Virus record (IMG/VR): IMGVR_UViG_3300033997_000345
Location: 1 to 20,069 of that record
Source of the DNA: a virus
DNA length: 20,069 bases
Direction: 5' to 3' (one strand)
Shown here: positions 1 to 12,448 of the stretch, one piece after another
Layout of the letters: each line of letters starts with the position of its first letter
Numbering within the stretch: the stretch's first letter is position 1
Made by a program: the position numbers and the translations under genes
Notes under the pieces: model-generated
Databases searched by the model: none
Told to the model about the DNA's origin: nothing
What the model saw: only the letters and a program-made list of their open reading frames with translations

Positions 1-524
1 CCTGTTCCTAATACCTGTTCTACCTGTTCTGTAGGGAAAACTGGTACTGCTTCGGGTGGATTTTGGGACTGCTTCCCGGCAAAACTGGTACTGCTTCCGG
101 AAAAATTGGGACTGCTTCCGCCATCCAAAGCGGTACCAGTTTCGGTACCGCTTAGCAGTTCCAGTTTTGGGACTGCTTGGGGGGGCGAAGAGGTACCAGA
201 TTTGGGACGGCTTTGGGCCCGTGAAGCGGTACCAGTTTTGGTATCGCTTGTCGGCTCGGAAAGTTCGTAGACGGTGACCGATTTGGTCATTCCGGCGCGC
301 TCGCCGGTGTCTCGCAGCGCCCCGCATTCGACCAGGCGGACCAGATTGGCCAGCACGGTCTTGCGGTCCTGCCCGGTGTCGCGCACCAACTGCGTGACCG
401 AGGGGTACGCGGTCCAGGGGCGCTGGTCCTTGTGCGCGTAGTGCGCCATAACCGTCAGGATCTGCTTGGCGGGTGCGTGGCTGATGGGCTGGCTGAGAGC
501 CCATTCGACGGCTTGGTGGCTCAT
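1..524 (-). CDS. Phage replication initiator, O-like helix-turn-helix protein (partial, runs off left edge)
   Basis: The frame is open from the ATG at 524 to the window edge (at least 174 residues), so the C-terminus is missing. The N-terminus (MSHQAVEWALSQPISHAPAK, then LTVMAHYAHKD..TAYPSVTQLVRDTGQDRKTVLANLVRLVECGAL) is the winged-helix layout of phage O-like/DnaT-type initiators: a starter helix, a helix-turn-helix at about residues 45-75 and a wing. From about residue 100 the protein becomes a low-complexity linker with recurring K-x-G-T-A/S units, coded by the DNA repeats at 43-249. In lambda the origin lies inside gene O, and the same arrangement is likely here. The ATG overlaps the TGA of the DUF1364 gene (ATGA), so translation is probably coupled. 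Role inferred: origin binding and helicase recruitment for phage replication. Confidence 0.8.
   Translation of the reverse strand, partial: MSHQAVEWALSQPISHAPAKQILTVMAHYAHKDQRPWTAYPSVTQLVRDTGQDRKTVLANLVRLVECGALRDTGERAGMTKSVTVYELSEPTSDTKTGTASRAQSRPKSGTSSPPQAVPKLELLSGTETGTALDGGSSPNFSGSSTSFAGKQSQNPPEAVPVFPTEQVEQVLGT
43..249. repeat. Iteron-like repeat cluster (candidate phage replication origin)
   Basis: Eight direct copies of a 10-mer close to GGKACYGCTT start at 43, 65, 87, 108, 144, 169, 204 and 240. The first four are 21-22 bp apart, two helical turns. The last four are each preceded, after a 6-bp spacer (AGTTTT-like), by an inverted arm resembling AAGCGGTACC (128-137, 153-162, 188-197, 224-233). 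The unit 128-153 is a perfect 10-6-10 inverted repeat and 224-249 has one mismatch. CCTGTTC also occurs three times at 1, 14 and 23. The cluster lies within the O-like gene, where lambdoid origins keep their iterons. What is seen is the repeats; origin function is inferred. Confidence 0.7.
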
Positions 525-925: not shown

Positions 926-1107
926 CACAGCCCCCCGCCGCGCAGGGCGCGCGCCGACACATGGCACAAGGGGTACAGGGCCAGCCATGCCGCCAGGACG
1001 ACCGCGCAGCGTGCGTAGGTCGGGCGGCCATAGAACTCGTCCAGGTCCATCGGGGAATCGAGCCATGCGCCGATCTGCTGCGCGCGGGGGGTGGTGTCGT
1101 CCCACAT
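925..1107 (-). CDS. Small single-pass membrane protein of the ninB operon
   Basis: This 60-residue product (MWDDTTPRAQQIGAWLDSPM...) has a polar N-terminal half and one hydrophobic stretch, CAVVLAAWLALYPLCHVSA, at about residues 34-52, followed by a short basic tail. It is probably a single-pass inner-membrane protein. I recognise no family. It is supported by exact coupling on both sides: its ATG overlaps the ninB stop (TGATG) and its stop overlaps the DUF1364 start (TGATG). It therefore belongs to the leftward early operon. Confidence 0.6.
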   Translation of the reverse strand: MWDDTTPRAQQIGAWLDSPMDLDEFYGRPTYARCAVVLAAWLALYPLCHVSARALRGGGL

Positions 1108-1562
1108 CAGCGATCCCCTCGCGTACGGAATTCCACACCAAGCTCGGCGCCGGCGGCCTCGACCTGCGTCAGGTACTGCGCCATGCCCTTGACCGTGAGC
1201 ATGGTGGTGCTGCCCACCAGCGCGCGATCACCGCGCGGGGTGATCCGCCACTTCACATAGCCTTCCTTGCACAGCACAGGGTCGTATTCCTCGGGCAAGA
1301 AGTCGCGCTTGAACTGCTCGTGCCATACGTCGGCTGTAAAGCGCTGACCTTGCACCCAGGCTTGCTCGGCGATATCGCGCAGAGGGCCCGCCCACATAAG
1401 ATCGTTCTGGCTCTTCTTGCGGGGCTTGACCGGCTCGCGGATCACGACCTCAAGCGGGTCCTCTTCGTCCAGCGGCAGGTTGCCCAGTTGGGCCTGCACA
1501 GCGGCCAGTTGGCTGGCGCCATACAGCAGGAACGTGCGGGGGTTGTGGAGGCGCTGGCGCAT
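1107..1562 (-). CDS. ninB: Recombination protein NinB
   Basis: The 151-aa product matches the NinB (lambda Orf) family in length and layout: an N-terminal arm, the central LMWAGPLRDIAEQAWVQGQR helix that replaces the family's usual NAKLWAML-type segment, a WHEQFKRDFLPEE region, and the C-terminal STTMLTVKGMAQYLTQVEAAGAELGVEFR, which is the family's most recognisable part. Lambda Orf is a recombination mediator that binds ssDNA and works with the Red pathway. That fits a phage that also encodes RecT and a 5'-3' exonuclease (6486-8242). The gene is coupled to its neighbours by one-base TGATG overlaps. Confidence is high for the family and moderate for the exact role. Confidence 0.88.
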   Translation of the reverse strand: MRQRLHNPRTFLLYGASQLAAVQAQLGNLPLDEEDPLEVVIREPVKPRKKSQNDLMWAGPLRDIAEQAWVQGQRFTADVWHEQFKRDFLPEEYDPVLCKEGYVKWRITPRGDRALVGSTTMLTVKGMAQYLTQVEAAGAELGVEFRTRGDR

Positions 1563-1741
1563 CAGTGTCTCGTCGAAAATGCGGTGTGCCGGCCAATCAC
1601 AAGAAAGGCCTCACGCAGTTGGGGGTTCAGGTCTTCGCGCAGCATCATTTCTTCGTAGGCCTTGACGCGGTCCCAGTTGTGCCGGCGCAACTCTTCTTCA
1701 AAGGCGCGCTTGGCAATCGCAAGGGCTTGCTCATATGTCAT
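1562..1741 (-). CDS. Small conserved phage protein, 59 aa
   Basis: The product begins MTYEQALAIAKRAFEEELRR and is predicted to be mostly helical and charged. No motif or family function can be named. The start at 1741 is chosen because ATG and the upstream stop form ATGA; a longer frame to 2023 overlaps the upstream regulator gene in a different frame and has no support. The stop overlaps the ninB start (TGATG). It sits between the cII-like regulator and ninB. Confidence 0.65.
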   Translation of the reverse strand: MTYEQALAIAKRAFEEELRRHNWDRVKAYEEMMLREDLNPQLREAFLVIGRHTAFSTRH

Positions 1742-2112
1742 GTGGCCCTCTGGGCGATGACTTCTTCCATAATCGTCAGCCGGCCCAAATGGTTGAGGTA
1801 CTGGCGAATGGCGTGGTTGCCCACGGCCTCTTCGAAGGCATCGATGCGGTCGGCGGGAAGATTCAGCCGGGGCCGGTTCTTCTCGTCGAAGGGTTCGGGG
1901 TGCAGGTAGCTGCTGACGTGAGGCGCGTACAGGTCGCACTCTTCGGCCAGGCTGCGCTGCGTCATGTTCGGGCGGGTCCGATGGTCCCAGGCGAGGCGCA
2001 CGGCCTCGCGGAAAGTCCTGCACGCGGCAACCGTCGACGGCGGCAGGAACCTCTTTCCGGCGGGCGCCGTCGGGGTACTGGCGCCATAAACAACTGCGGG
2101 ATGGGTGTGCAT
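1738..2112 (-). CDS. Phage HTH regulator in the cII position
   Basis: The product is 124 aa. After a loose N-terminal part of about 30 residues it has FREAVRLAWDHRT, then a helix-turn-helix (about residues 50-70, MTQRSLAEECDLYAPHVSSY), then a segment rich in P/R/D and a C-terminal helical part (FEEAVGNHAIRQYLNHLGR). Proteins of this pattern lie between cro and the replication genes of beta-proteobacterial prophages, the place held by cII in lambda. A role as activator or second regulator of lysogeny is inferred from position. The N-terminus is uncertain: the spacing to a Shine-Dalgarno-like GAAGAG is short. A dyad at 2134-2158 lies just upstream and could be its operator. Confidence 0.65.
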   Translation of the reverse strand: MHTHPAVVYGASTPTAPAGKRFLPPSTVAACRTFREAVRLAWDHRTRPNMTQRSLAEECDLYAPHVSSYLHPEPFDEKNRPRLNLPADRIDAFEEAVGNHAIRQYLNHLGRLTIMEEVIAQRAT

Positions 2113-2133
2113 TTCTCTTCGCTTAGTAGGAAA

Positions 2134-2158
2134 AATTCATCGAGTTACAAGATGAATT
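2134..2158. promoter_or_regulatory. Inverted repeat upstream of the cII-like gene (candidate operator)
   Basis: AATTCATC (2134-2141) and GATGAATT (2151-2158) form a perfect 8-bp inverted repeat around a 9-bp spacer. It lies in the AT-rich gap between the divergent starts at 2112 (minus) and 2213 (plus), 22 bp from the former. A weak minus-strand promoter (TTGTAA, then TACTAA 16 bp on) overlaps it. Binding by the cII-like protein itself is one possibility; none is shown. Confidence 0.4.
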
Positions 2159-2212
2159 ACAGAGTGGCGTCGGGCCAAAATTCTTCGCATCAACAACACG
2201 ACGCGACCCGAC

Positions 2213-2377
2213 ATGACCGAAACCGAAAAGCTTCTGCAGCACGCCCAAGACATCGCCCGCCGCACCTTCGTGGACCCGAGCGAAAAGGCCGTGCTGGATA
2301 TCTTTGACGAGCTGCGCGCCGAGCGTGACCGCACGGCGTGGGCGACGGACGGACGCGAAAGCGCGTCGGTGCATTGA
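2213..2377 (+). CDS. Small hypothetical phage protein, 54 aa
   Basis: The frame starts MTETEKLLQHAQDIARRTFV and ends ..RESASVH. It is short, charged and helical, and reads like a family of small accessory proteins of beta-proteobacterial prophages, though I cannot name a function. It runs against the leftward early operon and divergently from the cII-like gene. No good ribosome binding site precedes the ATG (..GACCCGAC-ATG), which lowers confidence. It would share a transcript with the zinc-ribbon gene 85 bp downstream. Confidence 0.45.
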   Translation: MTETEKLLQHAQDIARRTFVDPSEKAVLDIFDELRAERDRTAWATDGRESASVH

Positions 2378-2462
2378 GCCGTGGCCATCGAAATGGGCGG
2401 CCTTCCCCAATCGGATACGATCGAATTTCCACATATCAACCGTTTCCGAAAGGGGATTGGCC

Positions 2463-2669
2463 ATGAGCGACACGATTACCCTGTCCTGCGCGAAGTGCGG
2501 CAGCACAGAATTCAGATATCCGGACGGTATCCAGGCAAACCTGAAGGCGGACGACACGATCACCTGCAACGGGTGTGGCGCAGAGGGCAAATACGGAGCC
2601 ATCATGGAAAGCGCGAAGAAGCAGGCCTTGGATCAAATCAAGGCCAGCCTCGGGAAACTGTTCAAGTAG
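2463..2669 (+). CDS. Small zinc-ribbon phage protein, 68 aa
   Basis: The product MSDTITLSCAKCGSTEF... has two knuckles, C-A-K-C-G at residues 9-13 and C-N-G-C-G at about 36-40, the spacing of a four-cysteine zinc ribbon. A lysine-rich helical tail follows (KKQALDQIKASLGKLFK). A good Shine-Dalgarno (AAGGGG) lies 7 nt before the ATG at 2463. The gene is convergent with cro and reads against the early operon. An opposing minus-strand frame (2436-2750) is coupled to the cro stop, but it has no recognisable domain and the CxxC pattern of this frame is the better case. Nucleic-acid or protein binding is inferred only. Confidence 0.65.
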   Translation: MSDTITLSCAKCGSTEFRYPDGIQANLKADDTITCNGCGAEGKYGAIMESAKKQALDQIKASLGKLFK

Positions 2670-2695
2670 TCGCCCGGTCATTCGGTCGAGGGCAA

Positions 2696-2716
2696 CCGAC
2701 GCTGATGCAGTGTCGG
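2696..2716. other. Hairpin between convergent zinc-ribbon and cro genes
   Basis: CCGACGCTG (2696-2704) and CAGTGTCGG (2708-2716) form a 9-bp stem with one mismatch (a G-U pair in one transcript) and a 3-nt loop. No run of T follows on either strand, so it is not a standard intrinsic terminator. It lies in the 74-bp gap where transcripts from both sides would meet. Confidence 0.3.
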
Positions 2717-2743
2717 CAAGTAGCGTCAAAGCCTGATCTGACA

Positions 2744-2992
2744 TCACGCGGCCTCCTGCTGCGGCGCGGGGGTGGCGAGCTCGGGCCAAATGCGCTGCCA
2801 GTCATCGGGGCGCAGGTCGCGGCGAGATACGGCGCCATTCGTCGCGCGCTCAATATCAACGCATCGGCACACAGGCACAGGCCGAATTCCCATACGCCAT
2901 TGATAGAGGAGTGCCGGGGACACTCCGACACTTCGCGCGAGTTCTGCGGCCCTCGGCGCGCCGTCCCGGTCAAGGTAGTTCGTCAGGTTCAT
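2744..2992 (-). CDS. YdaS-like Cro repressor
   Basis: The 82-aa product MNLTNYLDRDGAPRAAELAR, then SVGVSPALLYQWRMGIRPVP, has a Cro-type helix-turn-helix (about residues 12-35) and the C-terminal VSRRDLRPDDWQRIWPEL typical of the YdaS/Cro family, where the end segment RRDLRP-DW follows a statement of the host-cell operator domain. It starts at 2992, not at the earlier in-frame ATG at 3034, because 3034 lies within the promoter and operators. It is the first gene of the leftward early operon and is divergent from the repressor gene. By analogy it should bind the palindromes at 3002-3042 and repress the repressor gene. Confidence 0.8.
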   Translation of the reverse strand: MNLTNYLDRDGAPRAAELARSVGVSPALLYQWRMGIRPVPVCRCVDIERATNGAVSRRDLRPDDWQRIWPELATPAPQQEAA

Positions 2993-3001
2993 ACCGCCGA
3001 C

Positions 3002-3017
3002 GATAGCATTAGCTATC
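3002..3017. promoter_or_regulatory. Operator palindrome GATAGC-ATTA-GCTATC
   Basis: This is a perfect 6-4-6 palindrome just upstream of the cro start. It overlaps the likely -10 region of the leftward promoter. It has the same half-site and spacing as 4090-4105 and 4116-4131, so it is probably a Cro/repressor site. Confidence 0.72.
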
Positions 3018-3041
3018 CGAAACGGCAATAGCAAATGTCAA
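3008..3041 (-). promoter_or_regulatory. Leftward early promoter (cro promoter)
   Basis: On the minus strand a perfect -35 TTGACA covers 3041-3036. The -10 is less clear: GATAGC at 3017-3012 gives an 18-bp spacer, and TAGCTA just beyond it is an alternative. The promoter is embedded in the operators at 3002-3017 and 3027-3042, the expected design for a repressor-controlled early promoter. Confidence 0.6.
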
Positions 3042-3042
3042 T
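3027..3042. promoter_or_regulatory. Degenerate operator half-site AATAGC-N4-GTCAAT
   Basis: The left half AATAGC is identical to that of the site at 4090; the right half is degraded because it doubles as the -35 TTGACA of the leftward promoter. It lies 25 bp from the operator at 3002, close to the 26-bp spacing at the rightward promoter. A further weak half-site (GCTAT, 3077-3081) overlaps the repressor start codon. Confidence 0.5.
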
Positions 3043-3079
3043 TTCTCAGTCCGCGCTCGCTACCCACAATTGCTTTGCT

Positions 3080-3454
3080 ATGGAAGAACGAAATATTCGC
3101 GTCGATAATCTCAAACGCCTCGTCGCTGCCGCAGGCGGGACCGCTTCATTTGTCCGCTTGCACCCCGGTGTCGATCCAACATATGTGTCTCAGCTCATCA
3201 ACGGGCACAGGTCGTTCGGTGAGCGTTCCGCCAGGAACATGGAGATAAAGATTGGCTTGGATCGTGGCAGCCTCGATATATCGCCGGACGCAAGCAGTGG
3301 CGGCGAATGGCCCTTCAAAACTATTGCGGCGGCGCGGTTCGACCGGCTCCCCGACCATTTGAAGGGAGTCATAGAGGGTCGCGCCCTTACAATTATCGAA
3401 GAGTGGGAAGCAGAGCAATCGAAAAGCGACCAACACTTCAAAAGAAGTGCGTAG
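3080..3454 (+). CDS. Short phage repressor (cI-like, HTH only)
   Basis: The product is 124 aa from the ATG at 3080 (MEERNIRVDNLKRLVAAAGG). The XRE-type helix-turn-helix covers about residues 10-65, with the recognition region PTYVSQLINGHRSFGERSAR and the closing MEIKIGLDRGSLD common to this repressor group. The remaining part (about 60 residues) is helical and has no S24/LexA-like Ser-Lys protease domain. An earlier in-frame ATG at 3035 would add 15 residues but lies in the operator, and neither start has a Shine-Dalgarno, so leaderless translation (as for lambda cI from PRM) is possible. It is divergent from cro. The base composition from here to about 3,600 is more AT-rich than the flanks. 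Confidence 0.75.
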   Translation: MEERNIRVDNLKRLVAAAGGTASFVRLHPGVDPTYVSQLINGHRSFGERSARNMEIKIGLDRGSLDISPDASSGGEWPFKTIAAARFDRLPDHLKGVIEGRALTIIEEWEAEQSKSDQHFKRSA

Positions 3455-3589
3455 CCCACCACCACTGCGCCTCATCGTCTTTAATTGCAGTAAAAATTTA
3501 GGCGGCACGTAACCAACTATGAAGCTTGAGACTTTCTGCTTCTTATAGGCAATGATCGGTACACAGCCGCTATACCAACCGGAGATTTG

Positions 3590-4027
3590 ATGAAAGCCAT
3601 AGCAACCGCCGCACTGTTCTCAATCGTATCGCTCACAGCCTGCGCGCCAAAGCAGCTAAACCCAGCGGACTATGCTGCGTTCGACTATCCCCCTGATCCG
3701 GTCTGCACGAACGATCGGCAATGCGCCGCTATGTGGGTTGAGGCAATCACCCAGATACCCAAACTCTCAGGCATGAAGATTCGCATGCAGACCGACAGCT
3801 ACATCGAGACTTTCGACGGCACTCGCCAAGGACGCATGTTAGGTCGCGTGGTTAAAACGCCATCCCCAGACGGGGGTTACACCATCACGTCTACTCTCGA
3901 TTGCGGCCCCATCGACTGCAAGGTCCTTGATCTGCGCGGGCAAGCACTCTTCAATCAGTACGTAACAGCGGCCGGCGCACCGTTTGCCGACAAGGCCCCC
4001 GCCGAAAAGGCAGAACCTAAACGCTGA
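3590..4027 (+). CDS. Lipoprotein between repressor and rightward promoter (lysogenic conversion or exclusion candidate)
   Basis: The 145-aa product starts MKAIATAALFSIVSLTAC: a short signal peptide with lipobox L15-T16-A17-C18. Residue +2 is Ala, so the outer membrane is the default destination. The mature part has two cysteine pairs (PVCTNDRQCAAMW and LDCGPIDC) that may form disulfides, and the segment MKIRMQTDSYIETFDG recalls a family of small bacterial lipoproteins of unknown function. The ATG at 3590 (GGAG 5 nt upstream) is preferred over a TTG at 3587. It follows the repressor on the same strand and ends at a terminator, the place where lysogenically expressed genes such as lambda rex lie. 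Superinfection exclusion is an inference from position and localisation only. Confidence 0.75.
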   Translation: MKAIATAALFSIVSLTACAPKQLNPADYAAFDYPPDPVCTNDRQCAAMWVEAITQIPKLSGMKIRMQTDSYIETFDGTRQGRMLGRVVKTPSPDGGYTITSTLDCGPIDCKVLDLRGQALFNQYVTAAGAPFADKAPAEKAEPKR

Positions 4028-4047
4028 CGGCCCTTCTGCCTCCGATC

Positions 4048-4072
4048 AAGCCCGCCCAGAGCGGGCTTTTTT
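4048..4072 (+). terminator. Intrinsic terminator of repressor-lipoprotein transcript
   Basis: AAGCCCGC (4048-4055), loop CCAGA, GCGGGCTT (4061-4068) and a T run to 4072. It separates lysogenic transcription from the rightward early promoter that follows 30 bp later. Confidence 0.9.
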
Positions 4073-4089
4073 GTCGCCGTTACAAAATA

Positions 4090-4105
4090 AATAGCAACCG
4101 CTATT
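4090..4105. promoter_or_regulatory. Operator palindrome AATAGC-AACC-GCTATT
   Basis: This is a perfect 6-4-6 palindrome whose right arm runs into the -35 of the rightward promoter. It shares half-site and spacer length with 3002-3017. Confidence 0.75.
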
Positions 4106-4131
4106 GACCAGACCAGATAGCACTTGCTAAT
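4104..4131 (+). promoter_or_regulatory. Rightward early promoter (PL analogue) for the recombination operon
   Basis: -35 TTGACC (4104-4109), 16-bp spacer, -10 GCTAAT (4126-4131). Both hexamers overlap operator palindromes, so repressor binding would occlude RNA polymerase. The first gene starts at 4178. Confidence 0.68.
4116..4131. promoter_or_regulatory. Operator palindrome GATAGC-ACTT-GCTAAT
   Basis: A 6-4-6 palindrome with one imperfect end (GCTAAT against GCTATC) that overlaps the -10. It lies 26 bp from the operator at 4090, on nearly the same helical face separation as the pair near cro. Confidence 0.68.
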
Positions 4132-4177
4132 CTTTCTCCCACGCACTCACAACCCGTGAGCAACCTGGGAGAAGGAA

Positions 4178-4600
4178 ATGTTCGCAGTCATCGAAACCAA
4201 CGGCGCCAACCACATCGCCATTCACATCCCCCACGAAGGGGCCGACAAGTCGCTGCCGGCGCTTGCCGCGATGCTGGAGCACAACGCCACGTTCATCAAC
4301 AAGGGCTGGCGCGAGATCGGTGTGGTCACGCCCAAGATGAGCATCATCCTTGGCGACAAATTCGAAACCGAGTCGGACGACGCTGGCGAACTTCTGATCG
4401 CAGCCAGCGGCGCCGTGGTGAGCGATGACTTTGCGATCGCGACGCCCGAGGCCTTCGTGAGCAACAAGAAGGCGCTCGCGGAGAAGCAAAAGGAAATCGA
4501 CCGCCTGCGCTCCGAGCTTCAAAGCGTCAAGTACCAGTTGGACGCCGCCAACGCGCAGATCAGCGCGCGCGAGTCGGCCGAATCCGACGAACCTCTCTGA
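4178..4600 (+). CDS. Conserved phage hypothetical, first gene of rightward operon
   Basis: The 140-aa product starts MFAVIETNGANHIAIHIPHE. The N-terminal 95 residues look like a small alpha/beta domain; from about residue 97 to 135 there is a heptad-rich coiled coil (KKALAEKQKEIDRLRSELQS, then VKYQLDAANAQISARE), which suggests oligomerisation. It has no family I can name. A strong Shine-Dalgarno (GGGAGAAGGA) precedes the ATG. Its position right after the early promoter is where lambda keeps N and host-takeover genes, but there is no arginine-rich antiterminator motif here. Confidence 0.75.
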   Translation: MFAVIETNGANHIAIHIPHEGADKSLPALAAMLEHNATFINKGWREIGVVTPKMSIILGDKFETESDDAGELLIAASGAVVSDDFAIATPEAFVSNKKALAEKQKEIDRLRSELQSVKYQLDAANAQISARESAESDEPL

Positions 4601-4618
4601 AGACGCCTTCCCCACCCC

Positions 4619-4641
4619 GCCCCGGGTGCCGGGGCAAGGAG
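4619..4641 (+). promoter_or_regulatory. Hairpin abutting a ribosome binding site
   Basis: GCCCCGG (4619-4625), loop GTG, CCGGGGC (4629-4635) form a 7-bp GC stem directly followed by the Shine-Dalgarno AAGGAG (4636-4641) of the gene at 4649. The structure may set the translation level of that gene or protect the mRNA end. Confidence 0.45.
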
Positions 4642-4648
4642 ACCCACC

Positions 4649-4915
4649 ATGCAACGCAAAGCCTTCCAGATCGTGATGCGCAAGACGCAGACGATCACCA
4701 GCGAGCAGACGATCACCGTGCACGCCGAGACCGAAGCGGACGCGCGCGTCCTGGCCCGGTATGAAGAACTGCCGTCGTACCTGTGGCAGGACGAAACGGG
4801 CACCACCGCCGTGGAAATCGCGCAGATCAAGGTTGCTGACGACCCGCTCACGCACTACGGCAACCTGGCGCAGACGGCTGCGCAGAACGTGGCAGCTGGC
4901 GACGCTCGGAACTGA
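4649..4915 (+). CDS. Small conserved phage hypothetical, 88 aa
   Basis: The product MQRKAFQIVMRKTQTITSEQ, then TITVHAETEADARVLARYEE, alternates beta strands and a helix. The strand-ADTEADAR-helix pattern is common in small phage proteins that carry a ferredoxin-like half-fold. No function can be assigned. AAGGAG lies 7 nt upstream of the ATG. It has high GC at third positions like its neighbours. Confidence 0.7.
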   Translation: MQRKAFQIVMRKTQTITSEQTITVHAETEADARVLARYEELPSYLWQDETGTTAVEIAQIKVADDPLTHYGNLAQTAAQNVAAGDARN

Positions 4916-4919
4916 TGCC

Positions 4920-5285
4920 ATGAACGCACGCCCCGGATTCCGTATCTCCCCCGCGCAGGAATTGCGCATGGACCTGGCCGACGACGTGCGCGCGGCGTTG
5001 CGCGCCTGCATGCACGAGGTCATCACTTACGCGGTGGCCGAGCCCAACCGCACGACGGTGGCGCACGCGATCTACGAGGACAGCATTGGCGACAAGTCGC
5101 TGACGGAAGCCTTTGAGAGCGTGGCCAAGGCTTACGCCATGGGTGACACGTTCGGCCGGATTGGCGAACTGTTCACCCGGTTCATGGACGGCGCGTGCGC
5201 GCATTACGTGGAGACGGTGGCGGACGCGATCGAAGACCCCGAGCGCCAGCTTGACGTGCGGTTTGAACTGGCGCCGCGCAAATGA
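4920..5285 (+). CDS. Conserved phage hypothetical, 121 aa
   Basis: The product begins MNARPGFRISPAQELRMDLA and is almost entirely helical and acidic (ALRACMHEVITYAVAE, VETVADAIEDPERQLD). It has no signal peptide, membrane segment or metal motif. I do not recognise a family with a known role. The ATG lies 4 nt after the preceding stop and the stop overlaps the start of the next small gene, so it is part of the operon. Confidence 0.68.
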   Translation: MNARPGFRISPAQELRMDLADDVRAALRACMHEVITYAVAEPNRTTVAHAIYEDSIGDKSLTEAFESVAKAYAMGDTFGRIGELFTRFMDGACAHYVETVADAIEDPERQLDVRFELAPRK

Positions 5286-5374
5286 TGCTCGCCGCCATCT
5301 GGGGCCTGTGCGCCCTTTACGCAATTGCCTTGATCGGCGACGCCTTGATGGCGCGCCACCGGAGAAATGCATGA
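5282..5374 (+). CDS. Micro-membrane protein, 30 aa
   Basis: The frame encodes MMLAAIWGLCALYAIALIGD plus ALMARHRRNA: one transmembrane helix (about residues 3-22) and a positively charged tail, which predicts a cytoplasmic C-terminus. It has no ribosome binding site of its own, but its ATGATG start overlaps the upstream TGA and its TGA overlaps the ATG of the next gene. The exact tiling is the main evidence. Function unknown. Confidence 0.5.
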   Translation: MMLAAIWGLCALYAIALIGDALMARHRRNA

Positions 5375-5613
5375 ACAAGATCAACGACGGCGGCCCGGCC
5401 TACCCCGCGCTGTACGAGGGCAGCACGCGCCCCGACGCCATGGGCATGACCCTGCGCGACTACTTCGCGGCCAAGGCCATGCAGGGATTTTCTACCACCG
5501 TTCGGGACTTAGGTGGAGCTAACGACGCTATTGCGCGGGGTGAATTCGATACCTGCGCTCGATTTGCATATCTGCTTGCCGACGCCATGCTGGCCGCGCG
5601 AGGTGCCCAATGA
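5371..5613 (+). CDS. Conserved phage hypothetical, 80 aa (DGGPAYP / GMTLRDYFAAKAM type)
   Basis: The product MNKINDGGPAYPALYEGSTR, then GMTLRDYFAAKAMQGF and a C-terminal FAYLLADAMLAAR, is a widespread small phage protein with the signature DGGPAYP...GMTLRDYFAAKAM. Its function is not known. The ATG overlaps the stop of the micro-membrane gene (ATGA), and GGAG lies 6 nt upstream. The segment 5490-5570 is less GC-rich than its surroundings. Confidence 0.78.
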   Translation: MNKINDGGPAYPALYEGSTRPDAMGMTLRDYFAAKAMQGFSTTVRDLGGANDAIARGEFDTCARFAYLLADAMLAARGAQ

Positions 5614-5969
5614 CGACGAATCACACGCCCGGGCCGTGGGTCCGAGACACCGGCAGCGGCTTCGGCTGCGACGTGCGCGCCGAGAACGGCCGGAAGGTTG
5701 CAGCCACCTGGGGTATCAACAACGGTGATCCGCACCGGCCGGCGTATCGCGCTGAGTGCGACGCCAACGCCCGCCTGATCGCCGCCGCGCCGGACTATCA
5801 CGACGCCGCCGGCTGGATCCTCGCTGCAGTCGCGACCAACGCCGCGCCGGTCAACGCGCTTGCTGCGCTCGAGGAAATGGCGCTGGACGGCAAGCACGTA
5901 ACCCTGGACGCCGGTCTGGTGCTGGATCTACTGAAGGCCCACGCCAAGGCCAAGGGAGAGCAGCAATGA
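5610..5969 (+). CDS. Conserved phage hypothetical, 119 aa (TPGPW / ANARLIAAAPD type)
   Basis: The product starts MTTNHTPGPWVRDTGSGFGC and contains ECDANARLIAAAPDYHDAA, a pair of signatures shared by many small phage proteins of unknown function. The N-terminal half is predicted to be beta-rich and the rest helical. The ATG overlaps the preceding stop (ATGA) and the stop overlaps the next ATG. Confidence 0.8.
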   Translation: MTTNHTPGPWVRDTGSGFGCDVRAENGRKVAATWGINNGDPHRPAYRAECDANARLIAAAPDYHDAAGWILAAVATNAAPVNALAALEEMALDGKHVTLDAGLVLDLLKAHAKAKGEQQ

Positions 5970-6331
5970 CCGCCCCGAACAGCAACATCCTGGCCCTGTT
6001 CCACGACGGCCACTATCTGGCCGAGATCGTCGGCGGCGGTATCCGCGTCGGCAAGCAGCAAGGCGCGAGCGTTGATTTCCCGTCCGGCACGGCCGAGGCG
6101 CGTCGCCTGGCCCGGCTGCACGAGGTGGGCTCAATGGACCAGATCCATGCCGAGGTGCAGACCCGACTGCAGAAACACGGGGCCGCCGCGTGCAGCGACA
6201 CGCTGAAAGACGGCGACAAGGACTGGGATACCGGCTGCCAGGTGTGCGGCCAGAAGCCCACGGTGCATCCGACCGCGCTGTGTGGCCTGTGCTGCTTTGG
6301 CGAGGCCGAAACCGCTGGGGGGAACTGGTGA
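5966..6331 (+). CDS. Phage hypothetical with C-terminal zinc-binding motif, 121 aa
   Basis: The product starts MTAPNSNILALFHDGHYLAE. Residues 1-60 form a small beta-rich domain; the end carries CQVCGQKPTVHPTALCGLCC at about residues 92-111, a two-knuckle cysteine motif likely to bind one zinc. No family function is known to me. Coupling: ATGA with the previous gene and TGATG with the next. Confidence 0.72.
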   Translation: MTAPNSNILALFHDGHYLAEIVGGGIRVGKQQGASVDFPSGTAEARRLARLHEVGSMDQIHAEVQTRLQKHGAAACSDTLKDGDKDWDTGCQVCGQKPTVHPTALCGLCCFGEAETAGGNW

Positions 6332-6489
6332 TGATCCGCCGCCTCCTGCGCGCCCACTGGGAAGGCATCGTCATGGCGCTGCTGATGACCGTCGCTTTCT
6401 CCCTGGCCGGCCTGTTGGACGAGCCGGCCCCCTACCCCACCTGCGAAGGCTGCGGCAAGACCGCTGTGGCCGCCAAGGAAAGAACGTGA
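6331..6489 (+). CDS. Small membrane protein, 52 aa
   Basis: The product MIRRLLRAHWEGIVMALLMT, then VAFSLAGLLDEP, has one transmembrane helix (about residues 12-29) after a basic N-terminus. The C-terminal tail has a CEGCG pair, which on the periplasmic side (by the positive-inside rule) could form a disulfide. The ATG overlaps the previous stop (TGATG) and the stop overlaps the GTG of recT. Function unknown. Confidence 0.62.
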   Translation: MIRRLLRAHWEGIVMALLMTVAFSLAGLLDEPAPYPTCEGCGKTAVAAKERT

Positions 6490-7475
6490 GCAACAACCTC
6501 GAAATCATCACCAGCGACATATACAACACGCGGGCGAGCTTCACTGCAGCGCTGACGGACACCTCGATCAACTTCGATAGCGAGGCCGGCTTTGCCATTC
6601 AGGTCCTGCAGAACAACGACTACGCCCTGAAGGTCGCCACCGGCAACCGCCAGTCCGTCATCAACGCGGTGACCAACGTGGCCGCCATCGGCATCAGCCT
6701 GAACCCGGCCAAGCGCCAGGCCTACCTGGTGCCGCGCGACGGGCGCATCTGCCTGGACATCAGCTACATGGGCCTGATCGACCTGGCCGTGGCCACCGGC
6801 TCGATCCGCTGGGCCCAGGCTGAGCTGGTGCGCGAGGCCGACAACTTCGCGCTGAACGGGTTCGACGCGCCGCCCACGCACGTTTTCAACCCGTTCAGCA
6901 AGGACCGCGGCGAGATCGTCGGCGCCTACGTGGTGGTCAAGACCGCCGACGGCGACTACCTGACCACGCCGATGGGCAAGGACGAAATCGACGGGATCAT
7001 GAACCGCTCGCAGTCGGTGAAGTCCGGCAGGTCGTCGCCCTGGAAGACCGACTACGGCGAGATGGCCAAGAAGACCGTCGTGAAGCGCGCCTACAAGTAC
7101 TGGCCGAAGAACGACCGCCTGTCGGAAGCGATTCACCACCTGAACACCGACGGCGGCGAAGGCCTGGCCACCACCGCCATCGCGCCGGCCGATCCTGACC
7201 TGCTACCGCGCCTGCGCAAGGCCGTGGAAGCGGCCCGGGACGCCGCCGCGCTGGAACAGGTCTGGAAAGACGGTCTGGCCGAGGTGCGCGCCACCAAGGA
7301 CATGGGCATCTACAACGCCTTCAAGTCGGCCGTGGCCGCCCGCGGCGCCGTGCTGCGCGGCGAGGCCGTGCCCACCGACACCCCGCCGGACGACGGCAAG
7401 ACCATCGACGAAGCGCCGGCCACCACCGCGCCGGACGACGACGGCTTCGGCCGCGACGACAACAGGAGCGAATGA
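6486..7475 (+). CDS. recT: RecT single-strand annealing protein
   Basis: The 329-aa product begins at a GTG (6486) with AAGGA 6 nt upstream. Family landmarks of RecT are in order: GISLNPAKRQAYLVPRDGRI, CLDISYMGLIDLAVATGSI, GAYVVVKTADGDYLTTPM, then YGEMAKKTVVKRAYKYWP. RecT anneals complementary ssDNA and promotes strand invasion together with its partner exonuclease, which is the next gene and overlaps it. The last 80 residues are acidic, Pro/Asp rich and probably disordered, as expected for the segment that binds partner proteins. Substrate: ssDNA left by resection of phage DNA ends. Confidence 0.93.
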   Translation: MSNNLEIITSDIYNTRASFTAALTDTSINFDSEAGFAIQVLQNNDYALKVATGNRQSVINAVTNVAAIGISLNPAKRQAYLVPRDGRICLDISYMGLIDLAVATGSIRWAQAELVREADNFALNGFDAPPTHVFNPFSKDRGEIVGAYVVVKTADGDYLTTPMGKDEIDGIMNRSQSVKSGRSSPWKTDYGEMAKKTVVKRAYKYWPKNDRLSEAIHHLNTDGGEGLATTAIAPADPDLLPRLRKAVEAARDAAALEQVWKDGLAEVRATKDMGIYNAFKSAVAARGAVLRGEAVPTDTPPDDGKTIDEAPATTAPDDDGFGRDDNRSE

Positions 7476-10953: not shown

Positions 10954-11249
10954 TGGGCAAGGACTTCATCCCCAAAGCCGCCTGCACCGTTGCCAGCGGC
11001 GAATGCTTCTACAGCAGCCGCTGCCTGGGAAGCTGCACCACGCGCCTTCCGGCCGCCAACGCCAACGAAAAGCTGACGAAGGCCCTGGCCCTGCTGCGCG
11101 AGTTGCACGGATACATCCTCAACTTCCGCAGCGTGACGCGCTACGTCGACGGCTCCGAGATCGACAAGGCCATGCGTGAGGCAGCTCAACTGCTGAATAG
11201 TCTGCGCCGGCCTGCCGCCCAGCAGAGCGGCCAGGGCGCGGGGAGGTGA
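10953..11249 (+). CDS. Cysteine-rich phage hypothetical, 98 aa
   Basis: The product starts MGKDFIPKAACTVASGECFY and has four cysteines in the first 40 residues (AAC, GECF, RCLGSC), then a helical C-terminal part (KALALLRELHGYILNFRSV). A small zinc or disulfide domain is possible. The ATG at 10953 has AAGGGGG about 8 nt upstream; a GTG one codon earlier is less likely. It is coupled to the DUF551 gene and lies 2 nt from the methyltransferase start. Confidence 0.65.
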   Translation: MGKDFIPKAACTVASGECFYSSRCLGSCTTRLPAANANEKLTKALALLRELHGYILNFRSVTRYVDGSEIDKAMREAAQLLNSLRRPAAQQSGQGAGR

Positions 11250-11251
11250 GC

Positions 11252-12448
11252 ATGGCGGCCGCCGCCTACTACAACGAGATCGACCCTTACGCCGCCGACT
11301 GGCTCCGCAACCTGATCGCGGCCGGCCACATTGCCCCCGGCGACGTGGACGAACGCAGCATAGAGGACGTACACCCCGATGAGCTTCGCCCCTACACACA
11401 GTGCCATTTCTTCGCCGGAATCGGCGTCTGGTCGTATGCCCTTCGCCGCGCCGGATGGCCTGACGATCGACCTGTTTGGACGGGTTCCTGCCCGTGCCAA
11501 CCTTTCTCCGCGGCAGGCAAAGGAACTGCGTTTGATGACGAGCGGCACCTCTGGCCGGCCTGGCACTGGCTCATCCAGGAGTGCCGCCCTTCAGTCGTCT
11601 TTGGCGAGCAGGTTGCAAGCAAGGACGCAGAGCCTTGGCTCGACCTTGTTTCGACTGACCTGGAAGCCCTGGTCTATGCCGTCGCGGCGTGCGCTTTCCC
11701 GTCTGCGAGCATCGGTGCTCCGCACATCCGCGACCGGACCTACTTCGTGGCCCACGCCGCAGGCCAGGGATTTCAAGGGCGCCAACTCGGCCGGCAACGA
11801 GCTGGATCACAACAGCCGGCCGTTGAACGAAGTGGCCGTATTGGCCGGTTGGAGAACACCCAACACGGTGGACTCGAAGCTGGGCAACCGGAATGGCGAC
11901 GGTCAGGTGCAGTTGTGCCACCAGACGCTGTTGGCTGGCTGGCCGACCTGCACGACGATGGACGCGAACCGCGGGGCGAAGGACGCGCGCCCCTGGGATA
12001 CGGGCCGGCCGCTCAATCAGATCGTGGCGCTGGCCGGCTGGCCCACACCGATGGCGGGCACACCGGCGCAGAACGGGAACAACGCGGCGGGGAACAACGA
12101 CAGCAGCCGGCGGACGGTGGAACTGGCGACCTGGCCAACGCCACGGGCGGCGGACGGCGAGAAGAACGTGCGGACGCTGGACGGCGCCATGTCGGAGATC
12201 TCCCGCAAGGGCTCGCCGCAGGATCTAGCGCAGGCGGCAGCGATCTGCGGCCCGGCCCGGTTAACGGCTTCTGGCGAGCTGCTGATTGGCTCCTCTGCCG
12301 GGATGGAAAGTGGCGGGCAGTTGAACCCGGCACATTCCCGCTGGCTCATGGGGCTCCCGCCCGAGTGGGACGCCTGCGCGCCTACGGCAACGCGATCAAC
12401 GCGGTCCAGGCGCAAATCTTCATCGAAGAAAGCATGAGGTGCATATGA
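11252..12448 (+). CDS. DNA (cytosine-5) methyltransferase
   Basis: The 398-aa product has the conserved blocks of C5-methyltransferases: motif I FAGIG at residues 54-58 (S-adenosylmethionine site), motif [11 protein letters not shown] at 78-86 with catalytic Cys82, motif VI with Glu119 (GEQV in place of ENV), motif [17 protein letters not shown] at 155-167, and motif X near the end ([20 protein letters not shown]). The region between VIII and X (about 170-345), where target recognition should lie, is unusually rich in G/R/Q with repeats like [24 protein letters not shown], and is coded by DNA whose codon bias favours another frame (see 11379-12437). The role is probably protection from host restriction. 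It starts at 11252 with GGGAGG 5 nt upstream; its stop overlaps the next ATG. Confidence 0.88.
11379..12437 (+). CDS. Nested +1-frame gene inside the methyltransferase, WPTP-repeat protein, 352 aa
   Basis: The frame is open for 352 codons, entirely within the methyltransferase gene. It starts [20 protein letters not shown] with AGAGGA 11 nt upstream. Residues about 69-90 ([20 protein letters not shown] followed by [11 protein letters not shown]) and the end ([20 protein letters not shown]) match a protein type I recall from many phages and bacteria. Tryptophan-centred repeats (W-P-T-P-x3-D ... L-x-G/T) start at nucleotides 11748, 11850, 11940, 12039 and 12132. Codon third positions in the 40 codons from 11766 are G or C in 33 of 40 in this frame, but 19 of 40 in the methyltransferase frame. 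Function unknown. It could be a translated regulator or partner of the methyltransferase, or a decayed shared ancestor. Confidence 0.6.

Follow-up and report, generated by a model that had tools for sequence, protein, structure and literature searches.

The iteron plasmids RK2, F and P1 have initiators of the Rep_3 type. In phage lambda, two iterons beside the AT-rich tract together with this tract are the minimum for unwinding, and the AT-proximal iterons matter most (PMC7466680). Lambda iterons are bound by dimers, whereas plasmid iterons are bound by monomers (PMC5043065). The unwinding element of RK2 comprises four 13-mers, short repeats which are bound by the initiator as single strand (PMC4980987). 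Furthermore, in the staphylococcal plasmid pPR9 a cassette of ~500 bp consisting of N-domain plus origin, of the pfam13730 (HTH_36) type, replaces the RepA_N one of pSK41, and a mini-replicon replicates (reviewed in PMC5703833). For HTH_36 phage initiators, no published description of the origin design was found in the open-access literature searched; gp11 of Burkholderia phage Bcep176 (PHROG 1032/6643) is annotated as "primosomal protein" only, and no origin is annotated there.

Here we analysed a window of 20,069 bp (the whole stretch of DNA under study, which is the complete IMG/VR record). The source is a prophage fragment with, very probably, a start site of DNA copying inside its own initiator gene: based on sequence comparisons, we read positions 1-249 as the prophage replication origin, located within the part of this gene that encodes a linker predicted to be disordered, and assign this reading a probability of roughly 0.88. 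A phage origin of lambda design had been proposed for the repeat cluster by a sequence-only reading of the window. The location in the initiator gene, the constraint at the DNA level, the conservation throughout the family and the adjacent low-stability repeats fit such an origin and support the proposal.

Results

Gene content and probable host of the window

Since the window is the complete record, base 1 is a contig end and the initiator gene is incomplete at the left edge. The left part carries phage genes, encoding the O-like initiator (Table 1), a YbcO-type nuclease, NinB, a YdaS/Cro-like regulator, RecT and a YqaJ exonuclease, and bacterial genes follow from ~13.6 kb on (DUF3053, two GGDEF proteins and a Na/H exchanger). 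Close relatives of this protein (N-domain 96-99%) come from genomes of Achromobacter deleyi and A. veterisilvae and from five viral contigs, and we infer Achromobacter or a near relative as host. Divergent genes for a Cro/YdaS-like regulator and a repressor-like one (2744-3034, minus strand, and 3035-3454, plus strand), at a distance of ~2.2 kb from that for the initiator, likely constitute the lysogeny switch. Moreover, two long ORFs overlap in different frames on the plus strand (11246-12448, 400 aa; 11379-12437, 352 aa). The longer one matches C-5 cytosine methylases only at residues 78-191, the shorter one is repetitive (GWPTP-like) without a Pfam match, and the pair is possibly a frameshifted or dual-coding methyltransferase.

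A modular initiator of the HTH_36 type

The initiator matches two PHROG families annotated as "replication initiation protein" (6643, E=2e-21; 1032, E=2e-20), and the match spans the N-domain and the linker. Complete relatives (L003-L007 and L095) have 294-298 aa. The Pfam HTH_36 match of the window N-domain (E=2e-4) is under the curated cut-off, and several relatives score well above it. AlphaFold2 predicted four helices and a two-strand wing for this domain (mean pLDDT 88.7). When the relative L005 was modelled at full length, the array-encoded residues 92-190 mostly had pLDDT <50 and were followed by a helical C-domain; the array-encoded linker is thus predicted to be disordered. Foldseek and VIA-align placed the N-domain among generic winged helices, with the initiator structures 4pt7/4pql (Z 8.2) tied with many transcription factors, and a PDB sequence search with the N-domain profile returned nothing meaningful. 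Phage_rep_O (PF04492) matched neither the window protein nor its relatives, whereas the lambda O control reached E=6e-36, and there was no BLASTP similarity; likewise, Pfam showed no RepA_N match (PF06970) in the window protein and relatives. The "O-like" initiator of the sequence-only reading is thus not a protein of the lambda O family, as its N-domain is of the HTH_36 type and not Phage_rep_O.

The C-domains vary among relatives and are DnaT-like (phiV10; weakly L097), lambda-O-like (Edno5) or of the Achromobacter type. In the initiator of Edwardsiella phage Edno5, the N-domain is 39% identical to that of the window and the lambda-O C-domain shows 61% identity over 144 aa, so that an HTH_36-type N-domain with its iterons is joined to the helicase-recruiting half of lambda O. 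The gene downstream of the initiator is annotated as P in Edno5, is lambda P by Pfam in phiV10 and is annotated as DnaB-like helicase in AP22. Unlike in lambda, the Achromobacter-type relatives showed no lambda-O C-domain with a P helicase loader behind it. Directly behind the L005 initiator, in the place of lambda P or the Bcep176 DUF6475 gene, lies a gene (3878-4648) of PHROG 6028, a family of unassigned function, without a Pfam match; its product is a candidate helicase loader.

Three blocks of repeats in the linker-coding region

The motif GGKACYGCTT occurs ten times exactly in the 20,069 bp, and eight of the ten copies fall within 43-233 (plus strand: 43, 65, 87, 108, 144, 169; minus strand: 128, 224). 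Allowing one or two mismatches adds the sites 153(-), 188(-), 204(+) and 240(+), which gives twelve half-sites in 43-249. The previously claimed eight copies correspond either to the eight exact ones on both strands or to eight on the plus strand including two with a mismatch. The claimed spacing of 21-22 bp in the left part and the paired inverted arms were also recovered: the lone half-sites (43-117) are spaced by 22, 22 and 21 bp, and the arms form four 26-bp palindromes (128-249), in each of which an A/T-rich 6 bp separates two inverted half-sites, with the two leftmost ones overlapping by one base. Along the gene strand, the palindromes are followed by the four lone half-sites and these by a third block of low-GC GAACAGGTA repeats (GAACAGG(TA)), which had been missed before and is cut by the edge.

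Table 1. Features of the initiator gene and of the putative origin in the window.
Feature	Position	Strand	Evidence or remark
O-like replication initiator gene, 3' part missing at edge	3-524	-	ATG at 524; PHROG 6643, 1032; complete relatives
N-terminal HTH_36-type winged-helix DNA-binding domain, 92 aa	249-524	-	Pfam HTH_36, AlphaFold2
Palindromic iteron 1, AAGCGATACC-AAAACT-GGTACCGCTT (gene strand)	224-249	.	
Palindromic iteron 2, AAGCCGTCCC-AAATCT-GGTACCTCTT (gene strand)	188-213	.	
Palindromic iteron 3, AAGCAGTCCC-AAAACT-GGAACTGCTA (gene strand)	153-178	.	
Palindromic iteron 4, AAGCGGTACC-GAAACT-GGTACCGCTT (gene strand)	128-153	.	
Half-site iteron 5, AAGCAGTCCC	108-117	-	near-invariant in relatives
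Half-site iteron 6, AAGCAGTACC	87-96	-	near-invariant in relatives
Half-site iteron 7, AAGCAGTCCC	65-74	-	near-invariant in relatives
Half-site iteron 8, AAGCAGTACC	43-52	-	near-invariant in relatives
Start of GAACAGGTA repeat block, candidate DNA unwinding element	1-29	-	copies 21-29, 12-20, 1-7 (edge-cut)

None of 2000 synonymous resamplings of the linker reached the observed counts, and the same was true for 2000 permutations of codons within amino acids. At up to 0, 1 and 2 mismatches we observed 8, 11 and 14 sites, compared with means of 0.2, 1.4 and 4.9 after resampling and of 0.6, 3.1 and 7.0 after permutation.

Selection at the DNA level

Constraint was examined in seven distinct relatives (L096 and L004 are identical and were counted once). 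Among pairs of codons for the same residue, the fraction that differed was 0.295 in the N-domain, 0.273 in the C-domain and 0.221 in the palindromes, compared with 0.027 in the lone half-sites and 0.013 in the GAACAGGTA block, where 5 of 375 codon pairs showed synonymous differences. Amino-acid replacement reached 0.13-0.22 in the iteron blocks but only 0.03-0.05 in the domains. Fisher's test on variable codons gave p=1e-9 in an earlier set that included both L096 and L004. In the half-site block, the 10-mers vary at 2 of 40 bases and the stretches between them at 8 of 47; in the palindromic block, 25 of 104 positions vary inside the palindromes versus 13 of 19 outside. The lone half-sites and the GAACAGGTA repeats are held harder than the palindromes. 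Since synonymous sites are frozen while residues vary, it is the DNA rather than the peptide that is selected, and the variation pattern of the array is the reverse of a protein-coding one.

A low-stability repeat block

The window holds only the first 29 bp of the GAACAGGTA block, without the 3' part of the gene, and the properties of the block were read from relatives, in which it is complete with four copies (L005 3494-3540) and has the sequence CAGAACAGGTAGAACAGGTATTAGGAACAGGTATAGGAACAGGTAAT. In six relatives, it takes first or second place for low stability among the 50-bp stretches of the 6.3-kb locus, and in one 42-kb record it ranks 32 of 42,013 positions; in lambda, used as a control, the stability minimum of the O-P region was the known AT-rich tract. 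The sequence-only reading had suggested looking for an AT-rich unwinding element beyond the left edge of the window. The relatives do have a low-stability block there, but in contrast to the plain AT tract of lambda it is a tandem repeat with 40% GC within surroundings of 65% GC. At least three short GAAC repeats were detected in 26 of 35 clusters, and the GC content of the tail is below that of the gene in 29 of 35. Family-wide, GAAC-type repeats number 2.9 versus 1.5 in synonymous shuffles, an excess that is only two-fold because the encoded peptide is itself repetitive. Immediately past the GAACAGGTA block we also observed a CGCGCACCTGCGCG inverted repeat (behind 3540 in L005, and in other Achromobacter-type relatives), and the Bcep176 type has a GTGCGCGCGGAACGCGC-like stretch in the equivalent place past its short repeats.

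Conservation across the initiator family

The sequence-only reading had suggested a comparison with other O-like genes. Scanning viral contigs with an N-domain alignment yielded 447 relatives, 80 of which were kept; at 90% N-domain identity, 39 clusters (down to ~31% identity) were compared. At least two 18-bp palindromes (arms plus a 6-bp A/T-rich core) are present in the linker of 36 of the 39 clusters, window included. The mean is 3.05, synonymous shuffles give 0.63, and the rest of the gene has almost no such palindromes. The exceptions by this rule, L060 without a palindrome and L063 and L074 with one each, may rely on different half-sites or no longer have the origin. Site spacing peaks at 17, 22 and 24 bp across the family (22 bp: 51 observed, 3.9 expected). 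The array is the only one of its kind in each phage: ~200 bp hold 7 to 10 exact half-sites, and the remainder of the 39-85 kb has 0-1. Four related phage records contain 8 to 10 exact half-sites each, with 0-1 of them outside the cluster.

Two layouts were distinguished. In the first (window type, Bcep176, L021-L028, L073, L083 and L085), palindromes are followed by lone half-sites ~22 bp apart, mostly one last palindrome, and short GAAC repeats; in the second (phiV10, the Edno5 type L084, L058, L061 and L065), palindromes at 24 bp throughout precede the GAAC repeats. In L019, a close relative, six full palindromes are followed by one final half-site. The change from direct to inverted repeats had been regarded as uncommon, but roughly one in three of the related clusters shows the same order of palindromes, lone half-sites and short repeats. 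Residue 54 of the recognition helix covaries weakly with the half-site bases (p=0.055 and 0.012, uncorrected for relatedness), which is suggestive only. GC skew, also proposed as a check, was monotonic in three phage records and says nothing on the origin either way.

Discussion

As in orilambda and the Stx-phage origins, the iterons lie where the initiator gene encodes the linker. Each lambda iteron is an inverted repeat with an A/T core (ATCCCTCAAAACGAGGGA; PMC7466680), and four of the eight iterons here are inverted repeats. A low-stability block directly behind the iterons is common to orilambda and, here, the relatives. Moreover, the AT-proximal end of the array, which matters most in lambda, is the most constrained one here. 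In contrast to the odd 17-bp palindromes of lambda, those of the window are even 18-bp ones with a 6-bp core, and half of the array consists of lone half-sites at 21-22 bp. In our judgement, the array operates like orilambda yet outside the lambda O family: we did not file it there because Phage_rep_O matched neither the window protein nor its relatives and the Achromobacter type showed no O C-domain with P, and sequence matches assign the initiator to the HTH_36 / PHROG 1032-6643 initiators. Among these, Bcep176 gp11 has an N-domain 52% identical to that of the window and the same three blocks of palindromes, lone half-sites at 22 bp and short repeats (GAACAGTAG), although there the iteron that precedes the short repeats is a full palindrome.

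The best outside support comes from pPR9. Like the initiators of pPR9-type and RepA_N plasmids, the one studied here combines an HTH/winged-helix N-domain, a putative origin in the linker-coding part and an exchangeable C-domain (PMC5703833). Those are Gram-positive plasmids, however, the RepA_N domain proper was not detected here, and the likeness concerns the domain layout and the place of the origin. In their spacing, the four lone half-sites resemble the helically phased direct repeats of the iteron plasmids RK2, F and P1, whose arrays are without palindromic iterons of the lambda kind, and short repeats in the unwinding element are also known from RK2 (PMC4980987). The array combines both sequence kinds, lambda-like palindromes and plasmid-like half-sites.

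We envisage that the winged-helix N-domain binds the half-site AAGCRGTNCC and that two subunits per palindrome, on all four palindromes, would build a core nucleoprotein complex in the mode of lambda O. Further subunits would align on the four lone half-sites, two helical turns (21-22 bp) apart, and thereby give the complex a polarity that points to the low-stability GAACAGGTA block. This block would then melt under strain, perhaps aided by sequence-specific contacts with one opened strand, for which RK2 is a precedent, and the helicase would be brought in jointly by the exchangeable C-domain and the protein encoded by the next gene. We tentatively propose, at somewhat less than even odds, a widespread and so far undescribed class of three-block origins, in which one initiator uses two binding modes (dimers on palindromes as anchor, phased single subunits on half-sites) plus a repeated sequence-specific unwinding element, and which travels with the HTH_36 domain as a cassette that is combined with various helicase-recruiting C-domains.

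A comparably plausible account retains the origin and opposes only the two modes: the lone half-sites could be degenerate dimer sites with one good and one non-specific half, all bound in a single mode, which may also hold for imperfect lambda iterons. Lambda iterons 3 and 4 are likewise imperfect palindromes, and the six full palindromes of L019 indicate that the layout there tolerates full sites. However, the second half of the lone sites is not just weak, as GG is changed to CC or other bases in nearly all of them, and these sites keep their separate 21-22 bp spacing and are the most conserved ones of the array. We give single subunits and lopsided dimers on the lone half-sites about equal weight.

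Other explanations would dispense with the origin. That the array mainly serves as operator or copy-control element, through which the initiator regulates its own operon while replication begins elsewhere, is improbable: a winged-helix domain with palindromic sites does resemble an operator system, and two site classes could split regulation from initiation, as the 12-mers and 39-mers of RctB illustrate (PMC5395669), but the sites lie ~280-480 bp inside the gene, away from the promoter, keep this position in 36 of 39 clusters and are directly followed by the low-stability repeats. Still less probable is a conserved mRNA structure, with hairpins in the initiator transcript. The RNA of the array folds better than shuffles (z=-4.4), yet palindromic DNA sites give RNA folding by construction, and the strongest constraint falls on the non-palindromic lone half-sites and the GAACAGGTA block, whereas the palindromes vary more (25/104 versus 2/40). 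Finally, the linker is repetitive and predicted to be disordered, as would be expected if the repeats were peptide repeats of low complexity without DNA function. We consider this extremely improbable: the two orientations encode different peptides and synonymous shuffles lose the sites. Peptide repeats as sole explanation are ruled out by the synonymous-recoding test and by synonymous sites that are frozen while residues vary.

Overall, the origin reading maps a concrete origin for many phage initiators, a large group whose members are labelled in databases only "replication initiation protein" or "primosomal protein" and which span phages of Burkholderia, Achromobacter, Vibrio, Acinetobacter, Edwardsiella and Escherichia. 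Because both kinds of sites adjoin in one array, it offers a natural test of the relationship between iteron origins of the dimer type (lambda) and of the monomer type (plasmid), and also of how a DNA-binding domain moves between initiators jointly with its sites.
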